Origin: Methylobacter sp.
GTDB lineage: Bacteria; Pseudomonadota; Gammaproteobacteria; Methylococcales; Methylomonadaceae
Direction: 5' to 3'
Length of the DNA stretch: 64,000 nucleotides
Assembly (NCBI GenBank): GCA_030684815.1
Contig: JAUXXQ010000195.1
Location: forward strand, 1-64,000
The notes beneath the pieces are model-generated. The model worked only from the letters and a program-made list of their open reading frames with translations, did not search any database and was not told the origin of the DNA. The translations under genes were made by a program, and so were the position numbers. Positions 50,549 to 63,722 of this stretch are shown in pieces; position 1 is the first letter of the stretch, and each line of letters begins with the position of its first letter.

Positions 50549-51196
50549 ATGCAATTTATTCCCGCATTATTACCGCGTCTGATTCAGGCGATTAATGACG
50601 TCATCGAAGCCAATGCCGACGAAGTGACGGCGCTGGATCAGGCGATTGGCGACGGCGACCATGTGACTAATTTGCAGCGCGGCCTCAAGGCATTGACGGC
50701 TCAAAGCGATGAATTGGCCGGGCTTGATTGGGTGGCCGCATGGCAGAAAATCGGCATGACCTTAATGACCGCAGTGGGCGGCGCATCAGGATCGTTATAT
50801 GGCACCTTGTTTGTGGCAATGAGCAAGGCGGCGCGGGATAAGGCATTGAACCTGCCCGCTGTTGCCGAGATATTCAGCAGCGGCGTGGAAGCAGTAAAGC
50901 TGCGCGGCAAGGCCGATGCAGGCGAGAAAACCATGCTCGATGTGCTGATTCCGGTAGCGGCCTATTTGCGGCAGGCGGCAACGGATGCCGTGGCATTGCC
51001 TGAGGTTCTGGACAATGTCGCCCGAACCGCGATAGCGGGTATGGAGTCGACGAAGGACATGGTTGCCACCAAAGGCCGCGCGTCTTTTTTGGAAGAGCGC
51101 AGCCGGGGGCATATTGACGCAGGCGCTAAAACCAGCCAGTTAATGATTTGCGCGCTGGTTGAGGTCTTGGTGGCGCAATTAACAGCCCCAACGTAA
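50549..51196 (+). CDS. dhaL: Dihydroxyacetone kinase subunit DhaL
   Basis: A 215-residue nucleotide-binding subunit. The Mg-ADP site is the Asp cluster in DQAIGDGDHVTNLQRG near residue 30. GGASGSLYGTLFVAM and DAGEKTMLDVL follow. It gives a phosphoryl group to dihydroxyacetone held by DhaK. GGAG precedes the ATG. Its last 18 bases overlap the convergent dhaK gene. No DhaM is in the window, so the phosphoryl donor (PTS or ATP) is not evident. Confidence 0.88.
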   Translation: MQFIPALLPRLIQAINDVIEANADEVTALDQAIGDGDHVTNLQRGLKALTAQSDELAGLDWVAAWQKIGMTLMTAVGGASGSLYGTLFVAMSKAARDKALNLPAVAEIFSSGVEAVKLRGKADAGEKTMLDVLIPVAAYLRQAATDAVALPEVLDNVARTAIAGMESTKDMVATKGRASFLEERSRGHIDAGAKTSQLMICALVEVLVAQLTAPT

Positions 51197-52168
51197 AGCC
51201 GCAGTGTGAACGGGCGCGTCCCACAGGCGCAGCAGTTCATCATCAAACAGGCTCAGCGTGATTGAGCAACCGGCCATATCCAGCGACGTGGTGTAATTGC
51301 CGACCAGTGAGCGGCAGATAGTAATGCCGCGCTGTTCCCAAAATTGGGCTGCCAGCCCGTAAATCAGATGCAGCTCCAGCAAAGGTGTCGCGCCAAAACC
51401 GTTGACATGCAATAGCGCCGATTGGCCGGGTTGCGGTTTTAAATCCTCATCGATGGCATTGGCCAGGTAATCGACAATCTCGCTGGCGCTGCCCATGGCA
51501 ATGCGCTCACGCCCGCGTTCGCCATGAATGCCCACGCCCATTTCAATTTCATTGTCGCCGATGTCGAAGGTAGGCTTGCCCAAGGCGGGCACAGTGCAAC
51601 TGCTCAAGGCCACGCCCATGGAAGCCGTGGCTCGGTTGACCCGCTCGCCCAAGGCTTTGCAGCCCGCCAAATCTGTGCCATTTTCTGCCGCCGCGCCGAC
51701 GATTTTTTCAACAATGAGTGTCCCGGCAACGCCGCGCCGTCCGGTGCTGTGGCTTTTGGGAAAGGAAACGTCATCGCTAACCAGTAGGCTTTCATTCGGA
51801 CAATCGAGCATTTCGGCGGCGATTTCAAAATTCATCACATCGCCCGCATAGTTTTTGACGATGAATAAAACCCCGCCGCCATTTTCCACCGCCTGTGCCG
51901 CCGCCAGCATTTGGTCGGGGGTAGGGGACGTGAATACTTGCCCGGGGCAGGCGGCATCTAACATACCCGAACCGACAAAGCCGCTATGCAAGGGTTCGTG
52001 TCCTGAGCCGCCGCCGGAAATCAGCGCCACTTTGCCGGGTGCTGTGGGTTTTATGCGCCTGATGAAGTGCGGCTGGGTGTTGAATTGAATAATGTCGGCA
52101 TGGGCTTTGGCAAATCCGCCGAGGCTTTCGTCAAGTAAGGTATCGGTATTATTGATGAATTTTTTCAT
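51179..52168 (-). CDS. dhaK: Dihydroxyacetone kinase subunit DhaK
   Basis: A 329-residue substrate-binding subunit. GGGSGHEPLHSGFVGSGML is the N-terminal glycine-rich site. GVGIHGERG has the His that forms a hemiaminal with dihydroxyacetone. It would phosphorylate dihydroxyacetone to DHAP. It lies opposite dhaL with overlapping 3' ends. DhaK and DhaL are normally encoded on the same strand. Confidence 0.88.
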   Translation of the reverse strand: MKKFINNTDTLLDESLGGFAKAHADIIQFNTQPHFIRRIKPTAPGKVALISGGGSGHEPLHSGFVGSGMLDAACPGQVFTSPTPDQMLAAAQAVENGGGVLFIVKNYAGDVMNFEIAAEMLDCPNESLLVSDDVSFPKSHSTGRRGVAGTLIVEKIVGAAAENGTDLAGCKALGERVNRATASMGVALSSCTVPALGKPTFDIGDNEIEMGVGIHGERGRERIAMGSASEIVDYLANAIDEDLKPQPGQSALLHVNGFGATPLLELHLIYGLAAQFWEQRGITICRSLVGNYTTSLDMAGCSITLSLFDDELLRLWDAPVHTAALRWGC

Positions 52169-52202
52169 GGCGGCGGCTCCGGGGTGTGGTGGACAGCAAT
52201 GT

Positions 52203-53036
52203 TTAGTCGAGCTTGTTTAAAGCTTCGGTTATCGCGCTAATATCCGGCATGACCCAGGTGGGCCGATAGTCGGTCGTTTCAAAGTCTTTTTCGCTGGATA
52301 CGCCGGTTAGCACCATCAGGCTGCGTATGCCGGTGCGAACGGCGCCTAAAATGTCGGTTTCAAGCCTGTCGCCGATGGCTACCGTGTGTGCAGGGTCAAT
52401 ATTTAGTAATGCGAGAGCCTGCTGGTAAATGATCGGCTCAGGTTTGCCGATAATAGTCGGTTCAACGCCGGTAGCCGCTTGCAATGCAGCTAGGATGGCG
52501 CCATTGCCGTGAGTGATGCCGCGTTCGGTTGGCAGTGTGGTGTCAGCATTGGTGCCAATGAATTTAGCGCCGGCGCGAATGTTTAGCGTAGCGGTGGCCA
52601 GTTTATCCCAGGACAAAGTCCTGTCCATGCCGCAGACGACAACATCAGCGCCCTTGTTGGGGTTGTCTTGGTCATCATTCAGTTCGTAGAGTTCGGTCAA
52701 GGTAAATCCGCGCTCAATTAAGGGTTCTCTGGCGCCATCCTCACCGATTACGAAGACCCGCGTTTCCATTGGCCGGTAATGTTCGCCCAGATACAGGGCC
52801 GTCGCCATGCTGGAAGTCAAAATTTCATCGCGGCTCACCTGTACGCCCATCTGTGCCAATTTGACGACATATTGCTCTTGCGTCAGTCTGGCGTTGTTGG
52901 TTGCCAGAATAAAAGGCAGTTGTCGATTGCGTAAAGTTTGAAAAAAATCAATCAAGCCCGGCATCGGTTGGTCGCCGTGCCATAAGACGCCATCCATGTC
53001 GATGATGAGTGCATTTATATTGGTAAAAGGTTCCAT
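52203..53036 (-). CDS. HAD-IIA phosphatase (NagD / phosphoglycolate phosphatase-like)
   Basis: A 277-residue haloacid dehalogenase phosphatase of subclass IIA. Motif I is LIIDMDGVLWHG, motif II is ILATNN, the Lys is in IGKPEPIIY, and motif III is AIGDRLETDILG. It may remove phosphate from a sugar or phosphoglycolate. ATG 53036 is chosen because the domain starts there; the frame to 53069 has no ribosome site advantage. It starts a leftward unit with dhaK. Confidence 0.8.
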   Translation of the reverse strand: MEPFTNINALIIDMDGVLWHGDQPMPGLIDFFQTLRNRQLPFILATNNARLTQEQYVVKLAQMGVQVSRDEILTSSMATALYLGEHYRPMETRVFVIGEDGAREPLIERGFTLTELYELNDDQDNPNKGADVVVCGMDRTLSWDKLATATLNIRAGAKFIGTNADTTLPTERGITHGNGAILAALQAATGVEPTIIGKPEPIIYQQALALLNIDPAHTVAIGDRLETDILGAVRTGIRSLMVLTGVSSEKDFETTDYRPTWVMPDISAITEALNKLD

Positions 53037-53366
53037 TAGCTTGTTTCTCTCTATATTTGGGGCTGCCATTATAATTTACATCGAGTGTAAGGCGAACATT
53101 CTATTGCCTTTTCTAAGTGACTGGGTTACTTGCACGCATATTATGGCAAATTAAGTTGAACCTAATATTTGATAGGCAGAGGGTTTCAGGTGATTGTGTG
53201 TTTTTTGTTTTTAGGGAAAAAAACTGGCCAATCAGTTGCTATTCATGTGCTGGCGCAGAACATTGGGCATTGACATCAGTCCCCTTTCTACTTTAAAGTT
53301 GCGTTCGCATAAAGAGTAAGTAACCAAAATTATAATTATTACTATTAACCCATCGGAGCACGCATC
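53037..53366 (+). promoter_or_regulatory. Promoter region of the RuMP genes
   Basis: A 330-base gap between the HAD gene (leftward) and hps. TTGACA (53270-53275), 16-base spacer, TTTAAA (53292-53297) is the best sigma-70 candidate for hps. An ATG follows about 70 bases on with CGGAG as ribosome site. No clear operator was found. Confidence 0.55.
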
Positions 53367-54008
53367 ATGGCAAAACCATTAATACAAATGGCATTAGATT
53401 CATTGGATTTCGACCAAACAGTCGCACTGGCTACTTTAGTAGCACCGCATGTCGACATTTTTGAAATCGGAACTCCATGCATTAAACACAATGGCGTTAA
53501 CCTGGTTAAAGAGCTAAGAGCAAGATTTCCAGATAAATTACTGTTAGTCGACCTTAAAACAATGGACGCAGGTGAGTACGAAGCCACTCCTTTTTACGCA
53601 GCAGGCGCTGATATTTGTACGGTTCTGGGTGTATCCGGCCTGGCAACTTGTATCGGTGTTATCAAAGCAGCTAACGCACACGGTGCAGAAGCTCAAATCG
53701 ATTTGATCAACGTTGAAAACAAAGTAGCTTGCGCTAGAGCAACTGCTGAAGCGGGCGCTCACATCATGGGTATCCACACAGGTCTTGACGCTCAAGCAGC
53801 AGGTCATACACCGTTTGCTGACTTGACTGACATTGCATCATTAGGCTTGCCAGTCAGAATTTCAGTCGCGGGCGGCATTAACGCATCAACCGTACAAGAC
53901 GTAGTCAGAGCCGGTGCAAACATTATCGTCGTTGGCGCTGCCATTTACGGTGCAGCTTCACCTGCTGATGCAGCACGTGAAATTCGCGAATTGGTTGACG
54001 CGGTATAA
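53367..54008 (+). CDS. hps: 3-hexulose-6-phosphate synthase
   Basis: A 213-residue (beta/alpha)8 enzyme of the orotidine-decarboxylase fold (also hxlA, rmpA). It joins formaldehyde to ribulose 5-phosphate, the entry reaction of the RuMP cycle. Key residues are in DLKTMDAGEYEA (Asp, Lys, Asp), IHTGLDAQAAG and SVAGGINASTV. Codons are enriched in GCA/GCT and CGT-type choices compared with the polysaccharide genes, consistent with high expression. phi starts 2 bases after its stop. Confidence 0.95.
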   Translation: MAKPLIQMALDSLDFDQTVALATLVAPHVDIFEIGTPCIKHNGVNLVKELRARFPDKLLLVDLKTMDAGEYEATPFYAAGADICTVLGVSGLATCIGVIKAANAHGAEAQIDLINVENKVACARATAEAGAHIMGIHTGLDAQAAGHTPFADLTDIASLGLPVRISVAGGINASTVQDVVRAGANIIVVGAAIYGAASPADAAREIRELVDAV

Positions 54009-54010
54009 TC

Positions 54011-54544
54011 ATGCATCAGCAACTTATCATAGAAAAGATTTCAGGTGTTCTTGAAGCTACAGATGATTCGTACGATGTAAAGTTGACCCAACTGCTTGAT
54101 AACGCTAAACGTATATTTATCGCTGGCGCCGGGCGTTCCAAGTTGGTTGGTAATTTTTTTGCAATGCGGCTGGTTCACGGTGGCTACGATGTCAGCGTCG
54201 TAGGTGAAATTGTGACGCCGAGTATTAAAAACGGTGACTTATTGATCATTATTTCCGGTTCCGGAGAAACTGAGCAATTAATAGCATTCACTAAAAGTGC
54301 AAAAAAAATAGGTGCTAACATCGTTTTGATTTCTGCAAAAAGTAGCTCAACTATTGGCGACTTAGCGGACGCGGTATTTCAAATCGGTAGCGCCGAACAA
54401 TATGGTAAGGTTTTAGGTATGCCTATGGGAACCGTGTTTGAGCTATCTACCTTGTTATTTTTGGAAGCAACCATTTCCCATATTATTCATGAGAAAGGTA
54501 TTCCTGAAGAAATAATGCGAGAAAGACACGCTAATTTAGAATAG
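54011..54544 (+). CDS. phi: 6-phospho-3-hexuloisomerase
   Basis: A 177-residue SIS-domain enzyme (hxlB, rmpB) that turns hexulose 6-phosphate into fructose 6-phosphate. IAGAGRSKLVGNFFAMRL at residues 37-54 and ISGSGETEQLIAFT are the SIS phosphosugar site. The C-terminal IPEEIMRERHANLE is characteristic. It overlaps no gene and has only a weak ribosome site, so it is likely coupled to hps, which lies 2 bases upstream. Confidence 0.95.
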   Translation: MHQQLIIEKISGVLEATDDSYDVKLTQLLDNAKRIFIAGAGRSKLVGNFFAMRLVHGGYDVSVVGEIVTPSIKNGDLLIIISGSGETEQLIAFTKSAKKIGANIVLISAKSSSTIGDLADAVFQIGSAEQYGKVLGMPMGTVFELSTLLFLEATISHIIHEKGIPEEIMRERHANLE

Positions 54545-54679: not shown

Positions 54680-56665
54680 ATGACTTCGCGTCGAGAATTA
54701 GCGAACGCCATACGCGCTTTGAGCATGGATGCCGTGCAGAAAGCAAACTCTGGGCATCCAGGCGCACCTATGGGCATGGCGGACATTGCTGAGGTGCTGT
54801 GGAATGATCATCTGAACCACAACCCGTCAAATCCGAAATGGTCGGATCGTGACCGCTTTGTTCTTTCTAACGGCCACGGCTCAATGCTGATTTATTCATT
54901 ATTGCATTTGAGCGGTTATGATTTGCCTATGAGCGAATTAGCCTCATTCCGTCAATTACATTCAAAATGTGCAGGCCATCCTGAATACGGTTATGCGCCT
55001 GGCATCGAAACAACCACTGGCCCATTAGGTCAGGGCATTGCCAACGGCGTTGGTTTTGCAATGGCTGAAAAATTGCTTGCAGAGCAATTTAACCGCCCAA
55101 ACCATAAAATTGTTGACCATCATACTTATGTATTTATGGGTGACGGCTGCTTAATGGAAGGCATTTCCCACGAAGCCTGTGCCTTAGCCGGTACTTGGGG
55201 CTTGGGTAAGTTGATTGCTTTTTGGGATGATAACGGCATTTCTATCGATGGCCATATTGAAGGCTGGTACACCGATGACACGGTAAAACGTTTTGAAGCT
55301 TACGGCTGGCACGTTTTATCGGTAGATGGGCACAATCCTGATGAAATTAACAAAGCCATTAGCCTGGCTAAAGACATGACTAATGCGCCGACTTTAATTT
55401 GCTGCAAAACCACGATTGGTTTTGGATCGCCAAATAAAGCAGGTACACATGAATGTCATGGCGCTGCTTTGGGTCAACCTGAAATTAACCTGACTAAAGC
55501 CGCTTTAGGCTGGGATCACGAAGCCTTTATTATCCCAGAAAATGTTTACGCAGGTTGGGACGCTAAAGCAAAAGGCGCAAAGACTGAGGCAGCATGGGAT
55601 GCTAAATTTGCCGCTTATGCAGCAGAATATCCAGAATTGGCCGCAGAATTCAAGCGCCGTATGGCGGGTGAATTGCCGGCTAACTGGGCGGCTGCAGCTG
55701 ACGCATTAATCGCTGAGACTAATGCAAAAGCAGAAAATCTGGCGACACGTCAATCTTCACAAAAAGTGATTGGTGGATTAGCGCCTACATTACCTGAGTT
55801 TTTGGGGGGGTCTGCTGATTTGACCGGTTCTAACTTGACCAGCTGCAGCAGCTTTAAGCATGTCAGCGGTAAAGAACCCGGAAATTACATTTCCTACGGT
55901 GTGCGTGAATTTGGTATGTACACTATCATGAATGGTATGGCGTTACATGGCGGCTTATTGCCTTTCGGCGGAACATTCCACATGTTCTCTGATTATGCGA
56001 AAAGTGCTTTGCGTATGTCGGCATTGATGAAAATTCGCACCATTGCTGTGTTGACGCATGACTCTATCGGTCAAGGCGAAGACGGGCCGACGCATCAGCC
56101 GATTGAGAACACTTCGGCAATGCGCTACATCCCGAACATGGATGTTTGGCGTCCTGCTGATACTACAGAAACAGCTGTTTCTTGGGTGATGGCGGTTGAA
56201 CGTACAACTGGCCCTACCAGCTTGGTGTTAAGCCGTCAAGGCTTGCCGTTCATTGCGCGCACTGATGCTCAAATTGCAGCTATCCGTAAAGGCGCTTACG
56301 TTATTTCTGAATCAGCGGGCAATGCTCAAGTTATTCTCATTGCAACCGGTTCGGAAGTTGATTTGGCGCTAAAGTCACAAGCGGCTTTAGCGGAAAAAGG
56401 CATTCAAGCACGCGTTGTTTCAATGCCATCAACTAATGTATTCGACCGTCAAGATCAAGCTTATAAAGACAGCGTATTAACACCTGGTATCAAACGTGTT
56501 GCGATTGAAGCCGGTATTACCGACTTTTGGCGTAAGTATGTTGGCTTGGAAGGCGCGGTTGTCGGTATTGATACTTTTGGCGAATCTGCACCTGGCGGCG
56601 TATTGATGACGCACTTCGGCTTTACTGTTGAAAACGTTGTCAAAAACGTAGAAGCGGTACTTTAA
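54680..56665 (+). CDS. tkt: Transketolase
   Basis: A 661-residue thiamine diphosphate enzyme that regenerates pentose phosphates for the RuMP cycle. N-terminal SGHPGAPMG; cofactor motif [18 protein letters not shown] to NNG-type end (DDNGISIDG); central GPTHQPIE with the conserved His; C-terminal ligand-binding [18 protein letters not shown] lies before the ATG. It is 135 bases after phi. Confidence 0.95.
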
Positions 56666-56790: not shown

Positions 56791-57483
56791 GTGAAAATAA
56801 ATAATTTGACGAATGGTTTAGTTGCTGCGCTGTTAATGGCAAGTCCCATAGCAGGGGCGGAGACAGAGTATCCGGCAGCGGATTTCAAGCCAAAAGTAAT
56901 TTATCAAGATGCTGAATACAGTAGCCAAAATAAGCCTGCGCCAGCAACATCGGCCAAGCAAGAAACATCTGTTGAAGTAGATTCAAATTACCCTGCGGCG
57001 AATTTTGAGCCAAAGGTTTTATACAAAGACGCAGAGTATAAACCTAGCAAATCTACAGAAACTGCATCGACGTCCCAGCGCACAAGTGGTGCATCTGCAA
57101 ACAATGAAGTCGCAGCAAGTGGAGCAGAAAAAGCGCCGGAAGAATCAATGCTGACCTACTTATTAGGCTTGGCTGTTTTTGCTGTTGCAGGTTTCATTTT
57201 CTTAGGTAAGCGTGGTGCGCCAAAAGCCAAAGTTAGCGATGCCCCGGTATATTCCGGTCATGTTAGCGGGCTTTCCGGTGTCGCACGCTACATGAGAAAA
57301 CATAATATGGCTGCGGTAACCGGTGTCGCCAGATACTTGGAAAGCCAGGTTGTACCTGAAAAAAAATCGGCTGCGGCTGTTAGCAGCGTTGAAAAGTACC
57401 TTGAAAAACAGGCTGTATCGGAACAAGAAAAAGCAGCGCAAGCACGGACTGGAGTTGAAAAGTACATGCGTAACCGGGGGTGA
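56791..57483 (+). CDS. Membrane-anchored SGVxKY repeat protein
   Basis: A 230-residue protein of unknown family. A signal peptide (about 1-23, cut after AGA) is followed by two 16-residue repeats (28-43 and 68-83: PAADFKPKVIYQDAEY and PAANFEPKVLYKDAEY), a Ser/Thr/Ala-rich linker (86-118) and one membrane helix (121-138) with KRGAPKAK after it. The tail has four copies of an 11-residue motif at about 161, 176, 197 and 219 (LSGVARYMRKH, VTGVARYLESQ). By the positive-inside rule the tail is cytoplasmic. It starts at GTG with GAGGGGG upstream. The next gene, 3 bases on, has 15 more copies. Confidence 0.85.
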   Translation: MKINNLTNGLVAALLMASPIAGAETEYPAADFKPKVIYQDAEYSSQNKPAPATSAKQETSVEVDSNYPAANFEPKVLYKDAEYKPSKSTETASTSQRTSGASANNEVAASGAEKAPEESMLTYLLGLAVFAVAGFIFLGKRGAPKAKVSDAPVYSGHVSGLSGVARYMRKHNMAAVTGVARYLESQVVPEKKSAAAVSSVEKYLEKQAVSEQEKAAQARTGVEKYMRNRG

Positions 57484-57486
57484 TAA

Positions 57487-58680
57487 GTGGCTCAAAATCA
57501 CTTGATCAATTTAATATCCGGCCTGTTTGGATTCAAGGAAGAAGTTAAGGTTCAGGCCGTTCCTCGTGTGTATGCCACTGATTCTGCCGGTCTTACTGGC
57601 GTTGCCAGGTATTTGAAAGGGCAGGAAGTTCCGCCGGTGTTGAGCGGTGTTGCGAAGTACTTGAAAAATTTGGAAGAGTTGTCGGCAGCAGCAAATGAAG
57701 CTGCTGAGGCCTTTTTGGACGATTCAGCGCAAGAATTGGCTGCGGATCAGCCCATTGATCAACTGGAAGAGTCAATTGAACAAGCATCAGTTGAAGCTAA
57801 TATTGAGCATAACCCTGAAGATCAGCAAGAACCCGTATTGCGGACTAGCCGTGTAGCTAAATACCTGGAAAAACTGGATCATATTCCGGTAAGTAGTGTT
57901 GCCAAATATATGGCAAGACAGGCGATTTCTGCGAAAAATGCACCGAAAATAAGCGGTGTTGCCAAATATATGGCAAAGCATGCTGATGTTGTAAGGCCGA
58001 AAGCACCTGCCGTTAGCGGTGTTAGCAAGTACGTGGAAAAACAAGCGCAGTCACCTGTTGTAAGCGGTGTTTCCAAGTATTTAATTAAGCAGACAATATC
58101 AACTAGAAATACAGCAGCGGTAACCGGTGTTGCCAAATATCTTGAGGATGAATCTATTGCCGAGAGAAAAGCAGCCGCAGCCGCTATTGTTGCCAAGTAT
58201 TTAGAACAGCAGCAGCTGTTTGTGAAAGAACAAGAACAAGAAAAAGAAAAGGCAGCGCAATTGGCAATAGCCCGCGAAATAGAAAAGGCAGAGCAAAGAG
58301 CTATTGCAGCATCGGCGGCAACTGGAGTGGCTAGATATTTGGAAGAACAGGCTATTTTGGCGAAAGAAAAACCACCCGTCAGTGGCGTTACCAAGTATGT
58401 GGCAAGACAAATTGTATCCAGAAAAGATGCGCCGGTTCTAAGCGGCGTTGAGAAATACATAGCAAAGCAATCTACACAGGTAAAAGAAAAGCCGATTGTT
58501 AGTGGCGTGGCAAAATACGTCGAAAGAGAAGCGGCGACTGCGAAAAAAACACCAAAAGCTAAAGTTAGCGGAGTTAGCAAATACATGGAAAAACAGGCAG
58601 TATTGCCAGCGGTAAGTGGTGTTTCTAAGTATGTGAGGAAGCAAATTGTTTCTGCAAAAGTAAATGCGGAAAAAGCGTGA
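57487..58680 (+). CDS. Soluble 15-copy SGVxKY repeat protein
   Basis: A 397-residue protein of unknown family without signal peptide or membrane helix. Fifteen motifs of the form (S/T)GV-x-(K/R)Y-(L/M/V/I)-x-(K/R)-Q are spaced mostly 15-16 or 20-22 residues, at about 37, 53, 121, 136, 156, 177, 193, 213, 233, 279, 299, 319, 339, 361 and 376. The linkers are rich in Ala, Lys, Glu and Pro; 61-118 is acidic and 245-272 a charged helix. It starts at GTG, 3 bases after the membrane-anchored partner, with GGGGGTGAT as ribosome site inside the earlier gene. Multivalent repeats next to tkt and tal suggest a scaffold role; this is inference. Confidence 0.85.
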   Translation: MAQNHLINLISGLFGFKEEVKVQAVPRVYATDSAGLTGVARYLKGQEVPPVLSGVAKYLKNLEELSAAANEAAEAFLDDSAQELAADQPIDQLEESIEQASVEANIEHNPEDQQEPVLRTSRVAKYLEKLDHIPVSSVAKYMARQAISAKNAPKISGVAKYMAKHADVVRPKAPAVSGVSKYVEKQAQSPVVSGVSKYLIKQTISTRNTAAVTGVAKYLEDESIAERKAAAAAIVAKYLEQQQLFVKEQEQEKEKAAQLAIAREIEKAEQRAIAASAATGVARYLEEQAILAKEKPPVSGVTKYVARQIVSRKDAPVLSGVEKYIAKQSTQVKEKPIVSGVAKYVEREAATAKKTPKAKVSGVSKYMEKQAVLPAVSGVSKYVRKQIVSAKVNAEKA

Positions 58681-59047: not shown

Positions 59048-60034
59048 ATGGCTAAGACTTTGCTTGAACAATTAAGAGAAATGACTGTAGTTGTAGCTGA
59101 TACGGGTGATATTCAAGCTATTGAAACCTTTAAGCCGCGTGATGCAACGACTAACCCTTCGTTAATTACCGCTGCCGCACAAATGCCGCAATATCAAGGC
59201 ATCGTTGATGATACGTTGAAAGGTGCCAGAGCGACTTTAGGTAAAGATGCCTCTGCGGCGCAAGTGGCTACCCTTGCTTTTGAGCGTTTGGCGGTTTCTT
59301 TTGGACATAAGATTCTCGATGTTATCCCTGGACGGGTTTCTACTGAAGTGGATGCGCGCCTTTCATTTGACACCGATGCCAGCGTCCGTGTAGGCCGTGA
59401 GCTGATTGCGATGTATGAAGAGCAGGGCGTTTCGCGTGAGCGTGTTTTAATCAAAATCGCTGCGACTTGGGAAGGTATACAAGCTGCTGCTGTACTTGAA
59501 AAAGAAGGTATTCACTGTAACCTTACCTTACTATTCGGCCTGCACCAGGCAATCGCCTGTGCCGAGAATGGCATTACCCTGATTTCACCTTTCGTTGGCC
59601 GCATTCTGGATTGGTACAAAAAAGATACCGGTCGTGATTCTTATGAACCCGCTGAAGATCCAGGTGTACTGTCTGTAACAGAAATTTATAACTATTACAA
59701 AAAATTCGGCTATAAAACGGAAGTTATGGGTGCTAGCTTCCGTAATGTGGGCGAGATAGTTGAATTGGCGGGTTGCGATTTGTTGACTATTGCGCCATCT
59801 TTGTTGGCTGAGCTTCAGTCTACCGAAGGTGAACTGGTACACAAATTGGATCCAGCAAAATCAGCGGGCGCTGCCATTGAAAAAATAACCATTGATAAAG
59901 CGACTTTTGATCGTATGCATGCTGAAAACCGCATGGCTTCTGAAAAACTGGCAGAAGGTATTGATGGCTTCACCAAAGCGTTAGAGTCATTAGAAGAAAT
60001 TCTTGCGGCGCGTTTGGCAACGTTGGAAGGATAA
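59048..60034 (+). CDS. tal: Transaldolase
   Basis: A 328-residue class I aldolase-type enzyme that exchanges dihydroxyacetone units between sugar phosphates, serving the transaldolase variant of the RuMP cycle. [20 protein letters not shown] with TNPSL near the start and the Schiff-base Lys in [13 protein letters not shown] are diagnostic. [17 protein letters not shown] and [15 protein letters not shown] complete the barrel. The length is near that of E. coli TalB. Confidence 0.95.
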
Positions 60035-60250: not shown

Positions 60251-60769
60251 ATGAATAATCTTACAGCGCTTTCTGTCAGTATTGCAGTCCTTGCCGGACT
60301 TGCCACATTTTTGGCGGTTGGCCCTCTTAGCGGGCTCTTTTTTATATGGGCCGCAACTATTGCCTGGGCAGCATTCTTTTTTCTCGGTGCCAGTCAGGAA
60401 GCATTAAAAAATACCATTGTCTGTGGTATTTTTGGTGTCTTTATGGCTTGGTTAGCAGCTATTCAACTGACTAATATCCCATCTACAGCGATTTTGGGCT
60501 TCCCTTTTTGGGCGGCGGTGACTGTGGTTTGTTCGGTTCTGGTTATGTGTCTGGCGGCAAATATTCCGGCGCTGGCAACCATACCGGCTAGTGTATTGGG
60601 TTACTCGTCTGTATTTGCCTATTTGTTACAAACTCCCGATAAATTAACCAAAGATATTTTGTTAGGGGTTTCTTTGGATAATCCTTTAATAGTCATATCT
60701 ATTTCCATTGCTGTGGGCACATACTTTGGTCTATGGTCAGCCCAGCTCAGTGCAAAGCTGACTAAATAG
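60251..60769 (+). CDS. DUF1097 inner-membrane protein
   Basis: A 172-residue protein with about five transmembrane helices, related to the DUF1097 family (E. coli YcdZ). LTALSVSIAVLAGLATFLA and WAATIAWAAFFFLGASQEA are family-like. Function unknown. It lies after tal with a 216-base gap, so it is probably not in the same transcript. Confidence 0.75.
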   Translation: MNNLTALSVSIAVLAGLATFLAVGPLSGLFFIWAATIAWAAFFFLGASQEALKNTIVCGIFGVFMAWLAAIQLTNIPSTAILGFPFWAAVTVVCSVLVMCLAANIPALATIPASVLGYSSVFAYLLQTPDKLTKDILLGVSLDNPLIVISISIAVGTYFGLWSAQLSAKLTK

Positions 60770-62229: not shown

Positions 62230-62324
62230 GCCCAGCTACGCATAGCCTGGCTATGCTTTTGATTGACCTTGTAACCACGCCATTCGCTCATTATCGAGCC
62301 ACTATGCACGCTTTGGAATACGCT

Positions 62325-63722
62325 ATGAAAAAGACTATGTACGAAAAAATCTGGGACAGCCACCTGGTCGTTGATGTAGCCGGACAGGCACCTTTGCTTT
62401 ATGTTGACCGGCATTTGATGCATGAAGTCACCAGTCCGCAGGCTTTTGAAGGTCTGCGTTTATCCGGCCGCAAAGTGCGCAATCCACATAGCATTCTTGC
62501 TACCATGGATCATTGCGTGCCCACCAAAAACCGCGATTTGCCGATTGCCGATCCGATTGCTAAAAAGCAAATCGAAACCATGGCGGAAAACTGCCGCGAG
62601 AACGGCTTGAATCTGTACGACATGAAAAACCCCAATAACGGCGTGATTCATGTGGTCGTGCCTGAACACGGCTTCGTCCATCCGGGCATGGTCGTGGTCT
62701 GCGGCGATAGCCATACCGCAACGCACGGCGCATTCGGCGCACTGGCTTTCGGTATCGGCACCTCCGAGGTCGAGCACGTTATGGCGACGCAAACCTTGCC
62801 GCAAAAGAAATCCAAAACCATGCAAATCATCGTCAATGGTGAGCTGTCTAAATACGCCTCCGCCAAAGATATTGCCCTGGCGATTACCGGCAAAATCGGC
62901 ACCGCAGGCGGCACCGGCTACGTGATTGAATACACGGGTTCGGCGATTCGGGAACTGTCGATGGAAGGCCGCATGACGCTGTGCAACATGGCGATTGAAG
63001 CGGGCGCCAGAGCCGGCTTGATCGCCCCCGATGAAAAAACCTACGACTACCTGAAAGGCCGCGAATTTGCGCCATCCGGTCAATATTGGGAGCAGGCTTT
63101 AGCGTATTGGAAAAGCCTGCCCAGCGATGAGGGTGCGGTATTCGATGCCACCGTCACCTTAGACGCCGCCGACATTGCGCCGCAAGTATCGTGGGGCACT
63201 TCGCCCGAACAAGTGACCGGCGTTGATGGCGTAGTGCCCGCACCGGAAAGTTTCAGCGACGAGATCAAACGTCAAGCCTGTGAAAACGCCCTGGCTTATA
63301 TGGGCTTAACGCCGAACACCAAAATCACCGATATTGCCATCGATTACGTGTTTATCGGCTCTTGCACCAACGGCCGCATCGAAGATTTTCGCATTGCCGC
63401 CGAAGTGGCTAAAGGCACCCATGTTGCCCCCGGCGTCACCGCGATTGCCGTGCCCGGCTCCTATCACGTCAAGCAACAAGCCGAACAAGAAGGCCTGGAC
63501 AAAATCTTTACCGATGCCGGTTGGGAATGGCGCGAACCCGGATGCTCCATGTGTCTGGCGATGAATGGCGATGAATTGACCAAAGGCCAACGCAGCGCCT
63601 CAACCTCAAACCGCAATTTTGAAGGCCGCCAAGGTAAAGGCGGACGCACCCATTTGGTATCGCCCGCCATGGCAGCGGCCGCCGCAGCGGCAGGCCATTT
63701 TGTCGATATTCGCAACCTATAA
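62325..63722 (+). CDS. leuC: 3-isopropylmalate dehydratase large subunit
   Basis: A 465-residue aconitase-family enzyme of leucine synthesis. [19 protein letters not shown] near the start, [19 protein letters not shown], and the 4Fe-4S ligands in IGSCTNGR and [13 protein letters not shown] 62325 matches the usual length; the frame also runs back to 62253 but that would add an untypical N-terminus. The small subunit gene follows after 14 bases. Confidence 0.95.

Follow-up and report, generated by a model that had tools for sequence, protein, structure and literature searches.

A putative multivalent docking scaffold encoded among the RuMP pathway genes of gammaproteobacterial methanotrophs

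The window, i.e. the whole stretch of 64,000 nt of Methylobacter sp. DNA that was analysed, shows on its plus strand the gene order hps-phi-tkt-P1-P2-tal (Table 1). P1 and P2 are adjacent open reading frames, both with GTG starts, which carry 4 and 15 copies, respectively, of one short motif. The first-pass annotation had described such a pair at this place, and both the open reading frames and the copy numbers are confirmed: in 20,000 composition-preserving shuffles the mean was 0.003 motifs, with a maximum of 2 for P1 and 1 for P2. The counts also support its description of the proteins as multivalent. Only 3 nt separate the P1 stop from the P2 start, and a gap of the same length is found in 59 of the 70 relatives compared.

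Table 1. Positions of genes and predicted features in the window.
Feature	Position	Strand	Basis
hps, 3-hexulose-6-phosphate synthase, proposed main client	53367..54008	+	PF00215 OMPdecase/HUMPS family; constant motif-gene neighbour
phi, 6-phospho-3-hexuloisomerase	54011..54544	+	PF01380 SIS domain
tkt, transketolase	54680..56665	+	PF00456
P1, membrane-anchored motif protein (predicted), 230 aa, GTG start	56791..57483	+	
P1 signal peptide, aa 1–23, predicted cleavage after AGA	56791..56859	+	sequence
P1 periplasmic repeat 1 (predicted), YPAADFKPKVIYQDAEY, aa 27–43	56869..56919	+	alignment A4
P1 periplasmic repeat 2 (predicted), YPAANFEPKVLYKDAEY, aa 67–83	56989..57039	+	alignment A4
P1 transmembrane helix (predicted), aa 120–138, then GKRGAPKAK	57148..57204	+	hydropathy, positive-inside charge
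P1 cytoplasmic tail (predicted), 4 motif copies	57274..57480	+	
P2, multivalent motif protein, 397 aa, 15 copies, GTG start	57487..58680	+	
P2 conserved hydrophobic/amphipathic N-terminus, aa 1–20	57487..57546	+	
P2 first motif array, aa 37, 53, 121, 136, 156, 177, 193	57595..58125	+	
P2 long charged helix (predicted), aa 214–278	58126..58320	+	AlphaFold, pLDDT ~90 over much
P2 second motif array, aa 279, 299, 319, 339, 361, 377	58321..58647	+	
tal, transaldolase	59048..60034	+	PF00923

The motif consensus drawn from 78 P1 and 71 P2 relatives reads hydrophobic-[ST]-G-V-x-[KR]-Y-[LMVI]-x-[KR]-Q. The search pattern itself imposes V and Y; preferences at positions that it leaves free are observations. 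Comparisons with congeners give a dN/dS of 0.11–0.21 for the two genes, which by this measure are translated and constrained. In most of these comparisons the dN of the motif is several-fold lower than that of the linkers, with similar dS. Docking helices that recur along a flexible chain would look like this, although docking itself is inferred.

P1 is predicted to consist of a signal peptide, two periplasmic YPAA[DN]F repeats, one transmembrane helix and a cytoplasmic tail with motif copies at amino acid positions 162, 177, 198 and 220. An AxA-like cleavage site is present in 73 of 78 P1 relatives, and the AlphaFold model places a helix at positions 5–17. In alignment A4 the first periplasmic repeat has invariant Y27, P28, A29, D31, F32 and P34, and the second invariant P68, A69, F72, P74, Y78, D80 and Y83. 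All 78 relatives display a strong hydrophobic segment (modelled as a helix at positions 118–140 in P1) and 77 carry four motif copies. The mean net charge of the relatives is −1.5 before this segment and +3.2 after it, and is higher after it in 77 of 78. Under the positive-inside rule, this predicts a cytoplasmic location for the motif tail and a periplasmic one for the YPAADF repeats, in agreement with the membrane-anchored protein with a cytoplasmic repeat tail of the first-pass annotation; tethering to the membrane is well supported at the level of predicted topology. The two YPAADF repeats are absent from that description. The model of P1 is of low confidence (pTM 0.17) and shows no globular fold.

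The YPAADF repeat is also found apart from the motif. Small secreted proteins that consist of two YPAANFQPKVIY repeats, which match the periplasmic part of P1, are encoded downstream of an NMT1-type ABC importer (binding protein, permease, ATPase), e.g. at G000:C5:41946-42170 (L133:8818-9150) and in L134, L135 and L136. Loci L103, L137 and L139 contain a second RuMP cluster that lacks phi, hps-tkt-YPAA-P2, in which YPAA denotes a YPAA-only protein of ~95 aa; the two halves of P1, periplasmic and motif-bearing, appear here as separate genes. Because secreted proteins with YPAADF only exist both behind the importer and between tkt and P2, the repeat probably has a partner of its own.

P2 starts with a conserved hydrophobic/amphipathic N-terminus (NLISGLFGFK in the window, e.g. 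SGLFFPAVAGLFFFMKRP in relatives), followed by a motif array, a long charged helix and a second motif array. Fifteen motifs are counted under the relaxed pattern xxVx[KR]Y, 13 of which conform to the strict [ST][GS]Vx[KR]Y; among relatives the number ranges from 6 to 18. The spacing clusters at 15/16 and 20, and the first array shows spacings of 15, 16, 20 and 21 plus one gap of 68. The long charged helix overlaps motif copies at positions 213 and 233 and is, judging from the model, a possible coiled coil. In the AlphaFold model, which is of low confidence (pTM 0.24) and without a globular fold, a helix begins at 14 of the 15 motifs. As helices start at the motifs, the S/T residue would be a helix cap. 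P2 had been labelled soluble, but the conserved hydrophobic N-terminus makes this label unsafe; P2 is not plainly soluble and may contact the membrane by way of this segment.

Searches of Pfam, NCBIfam, PHROGs and a plasmid collection gave no credible relative, and P2 showed no match to PDB sequences at E up to 1. The first-pass annotation knew of no named family for the two proteins, and none emerged from these searches. P2 yields a score of 27.6 for U1snRNP70_N (PF12220), above the cut-off of 23, but in the repeat region only; this was rejected as a chance match of charged helices. P1, which bears the same repeats, scores 12. The P2 match is probably spurious and may mislabel such proteins in databases. 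SpoIIID and Zein matches were judged to be composition matches. The lack of a globular fold and of a family match would suit low-complexity proteins with a structural or regulatory role other than docking, e.g. in stress or aggregation, that ride in the operon. However, residue-level constraint is concentrated in the motif, and the proteins are kept across approximately 30 genera and a second family and are absent together with a different Hps lineage (see below), which makes such a role highly improbable.

P1 matches are present in 149 of 151 Methylomonadaceae genomes (in 127 of 127 good ones and in all 29 genera) and P2 matches in 132 of the 151; the family name rests on named database loci. 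When the regions are read, hps-phi-tkt-P1-(P2)-tal recurs in nearly all sampled genera. A database scan gave 79 named loci, including Methylobacter, Methylovulum, Crenothrix and Methylotuvimicrobium. In all 79, P1/P2 adjoin tkt, tal or both, and among complete arrangements that of the window is the commonest. Where P2 is found apart from P1 and the contig shows its neighbours, it is mostly with another hps cluster: P2-hps-phi-tkt in L072 and L097, hps-phi-tkt-P2 twice in L101, hps-tkt-YPAA-P2 in L103 and L137, and hps-phi-P2 in L107. L101 is from Methylotuvimicrobium buryatense and has hps-phi-tkt three times in tandem; P2 accompanies two of the copies and P1-tal the other. Natural fusions between the motif and an enzyme were not seen in the regions read across Methylomonadaceae genera.

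A conserved place in the operon is not in itself proof of physical contact. In Methylomonadaceae the pair lies directly between tkt and tal, and in the Methylophilaceae-like clusters described below the motif gene is situated between an hps and tal; the motif might then dock on transaldolase, transketolase or several RuMP enzymes instead of Hps, such that the sugar-rearrangement half of the pathway is organised. In Methylococcaceae, however, P1 (motif form ETGVAKYLKNL) is beside hps-phi, usually just upstream, even where tkt/tal are apart or on the other strand. Over the methanotroph loci as a whole, Hps is thus the most constant companion. In addition, no tkt relative was found in 13 Methylophilaceae-like clusters.

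Genomes without the motif also bear on the question. Five Methylococcaceae/f6 genomes (G171, G177, G186, G191 and G155) have an hps but no motif protein nearby, and their Hps forms a separate clade (support 0.89), unlike the motif-linked Hps. Thus motif and Hps lineage go together, but the co-variation may reflect only one or two events. The readable f6 P1 relatives retain the YPAA repeats and the transmembrane segment, with a tail that has no motif. Three charged Hps residues, E70, K100 and E108, are conserved with the motif and variable without it in a few, related sequences, and are a weak lead to motif-linked positions. Tal lost no conserved positions in the motif-less genomes (two sequences only). 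Docking on Tkt, Tal or several RuMP enzymes is therefore unlikely, and Hps, perhaps with Phi, appears the most likely partner from these comparisons.

Order families f7 and f8 have pmoA-like genes in most tested genomes, no good hps and no P1. The reading that P1 simply tracks pMMO was rejected, as the pmoA-positive, hps-negative genomes tested are without P1. The same genomes bear on the suggestion that P1 and P2 mainly organise the intracytoplasmic membrane stacks of type I methanotrophs, with P1 spanning the membrane, P2 bridging sheets by means of a common adaptor and the RuMP genes as co-regulated neighbours only. P1, as a predicted membrane protein whose periplasmic part is repeated, was found within the methanotroph order only, and P2 has its hydrophobic N-terminus, as such an organiser might. 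Yet gene position follows hps, and Methylophilaceae-like genomes, which have no pMMO and are not known to form such stacks, retain a P2-like gene with the motif among their hps genes. A main role in the stacks is quite unlikely.

In a class-wide sample of 274 genomes, motif proteins were found in 5 of 5 genomes with hps, presence of which was scored over a cut-off that five genomes pass, and in 0 of 269 others. Occurrence in non-methylotrophs, which the first-pass annotation had regarded as adverse to its proposal, was thus not seen among the hps-less genomes of this sample. Weak matches in G286, G342, G351, G390 and G459 show no repeated motif in the stretches read. Two of the five hps-bearing genomes are in family f10, which is taken as Methylophilaceae from gene content, not by name. 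Fifty-one of 57 f10 genomes match the motif search; regexes built on the Methylococcales motif miss a few short motif genes, which were found on re-reading. All 13 f10 clusters read show hps-[motif]-tal-hps-phi, with a motif protein of ~60–190 aa that carries 2–7 copies (forms TGVERYI and TSVERYI) and an N-terminus of similar hydrophobic style to that of P2. P1 and pMMO were not found in the f10 genomes tested. A reading of the motif as restricted to methanotrophs was rejected, because the hps loci of G250 and G407 hold a P2-like gene missed by the P1 search. Linkage of the motif to hps therefore extends across two bacterial families. The association with RuMP genes, guessed initially from one locus, holds across approximately 30 methanotroph genera and the second family and is strongly supported by the comparative data.

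A location mainly away from RuMP genes, which the first-pass annotation would have counted against its proposal, was not observed. The motif is not exclusive to proteins of the RuMP clusters, since it also occurs in a Pil-Chp chemosensory kinase. In six Methylophilaceae-like loci (L313:4672-10581, L326:5742-11459, L315, L317, L321 and L330), a ChpA/PilL-type hybrid kinase of 1,800–2,000 aa with Hpt, HATPase_c, CheW and receiver domains has 4–8 motif copies of similar spacing between its Hpt domains. The gene follows pilG-, pilH-, pilI- and pilJ-like genes, away from RuMP genes, and a matching frame of such size is found in ~25 genomes. The kinase may dock on the RuMP enzyme that P1 and P2 would bind, which would link motility to C1 flux, or the partner may be a different protein. 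The former needs only a single partner for every motif protein and agrees with motif arrays being confined to hps genomes. It is conceivable, though rather doubtful, that one docking motif, borne by a multivalent chain, by a membrane protein with a further periplasmic docking repeat and by a chemosensory kinase of methanol users, organises the RuMP entry enzyme at the membrane and couples its state to surface motility. The kinase could also mean that what the motif binds is a spatial hub of general use, e.g. a cell-pole or chemosensory protein that positions P2 and ChpA, with metabolic cargo. But the window's own genome has motif arrays in P1 and P2 only, the hps-less genomes of the class, where Pil-Chp is presumably common, have none, and P2 has no other domain to carry cargo; a hub of this kind is improbable.

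We consider it probable that P1 and P2 together act as a multivalent scaffold on which the enzyme of the RuMP entry step, Hps, and perhaps also Phi, would dock, with P1 as the membrane tether. A scaffold function is predicted, and likely. Every copy of the motif would form a short helix, capped at its N-terminus, and all copies would dock on a shared oligomeric partner, which is most likely Hps. The many weak helices of P2, on a flexible chain split by the long charged helix, would cross-link the oligomeric enzyme into a network, and the motif tail of P1 would tie this network to the inner or intracytoplasmic membrane. The periplasmic YPAADF repeats would dock on something outside. Free formaldehyde is toxic, and in these bacteria is made outside the cytoplasm and used inside; with such a scaffold it would be captured close to the membrane that it has to cross. 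Older methanotroph biochemistry described a particulate hexulose-phosphate synthase, which is not used as evidence here.

In outline P1 and P2 would work like multivalent linker scaffolds, but they were found to be members of none. EPYC1, the Rubisco linker of the algal pyrenoid, is a disordered chain with repeated short helices on an oligomeric carbon-fixing enzyme. P2 resembles it as a chain, predicted to be disordered, whose recurring short helices would all bind a single oligomeric enzyme, and its 15 helix-motif copies are evenly spaced (mostly 15/16/20). However, no sequence relation was found, enzyme and pathway are different, docking by P1/P2 is predicted, and the motif of P2 is shared here with another protein that is anchored in the membrane. 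CsoS2, the alpha-carboxysome scaffold, likewise has multivalent short repeats encoded beside genes of the enzymes presumed to be served; but the Pfam and NCBIfam searches gave no CsoS2 family match for P1 or P2, and the neighbours read (hps, phi, tkt, tal) include no shell or Rubisco genes. Another natural tie of Hps to Phi is seen in the hps-phi fusion-length proteins of L176, L180 and L184 (389–427 aa), but there the tie is a covalent fusion, and no motif protein was found in the ~20 kb around these copies. Engineered Mdh-Hps-Phi assemblies (Price 2016 and others) raise flux and improve methanol conversion, with a reported benefit in vitro (PMC8879981). They have the purpose proposed here, Hps/Phi near formaldehyde, but are artificial, and the available text of the same review names no natural scaffold. 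In a CRISPRi screen in Methylococcus, repression of the RuMP operons lowers fitness, and the text does not single out P1 (PMC13108547).

If the proposal is true, C1 assimilation would have a natural scaffold not described before, which nearly all of the examined gammaproteobacterial methanotrophs with the RuMP pathway possess and of which Methylophilaceae-like methylotrophs have a shorter version. The hand-over of formaldehyde to Hps would become directly testable, which would be useful to engineers of methane and methanol use, and the motif could serve as a small portable tag that recruits the bound enzyme.

Several neighbouring genes recur with the cluster. In the window, dhaL, dhaK and a HAD hydrolase gene adjoin hps (50549–53069), and the trio adjoins the hps cluster in 13 of 13 Methylophilaceae-like and ~8–10 Methylomonadaceae loci. 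These shared neighbours suggest a common ancestral or transferred C1 cluster; since dhaKL/HAD are common to both, the Methylococcales and Methylophilaceae-like clusters may come from one transfer and not be two independent associations. A DUF1097 membrane protein gene follows tal (60251–60769) and is retained in several Methylobacter loci. A leuC-like gene is situated near the RuMP cluster (62253–63722), as it is in 12 of 13 Methylophilaceae-like loci.
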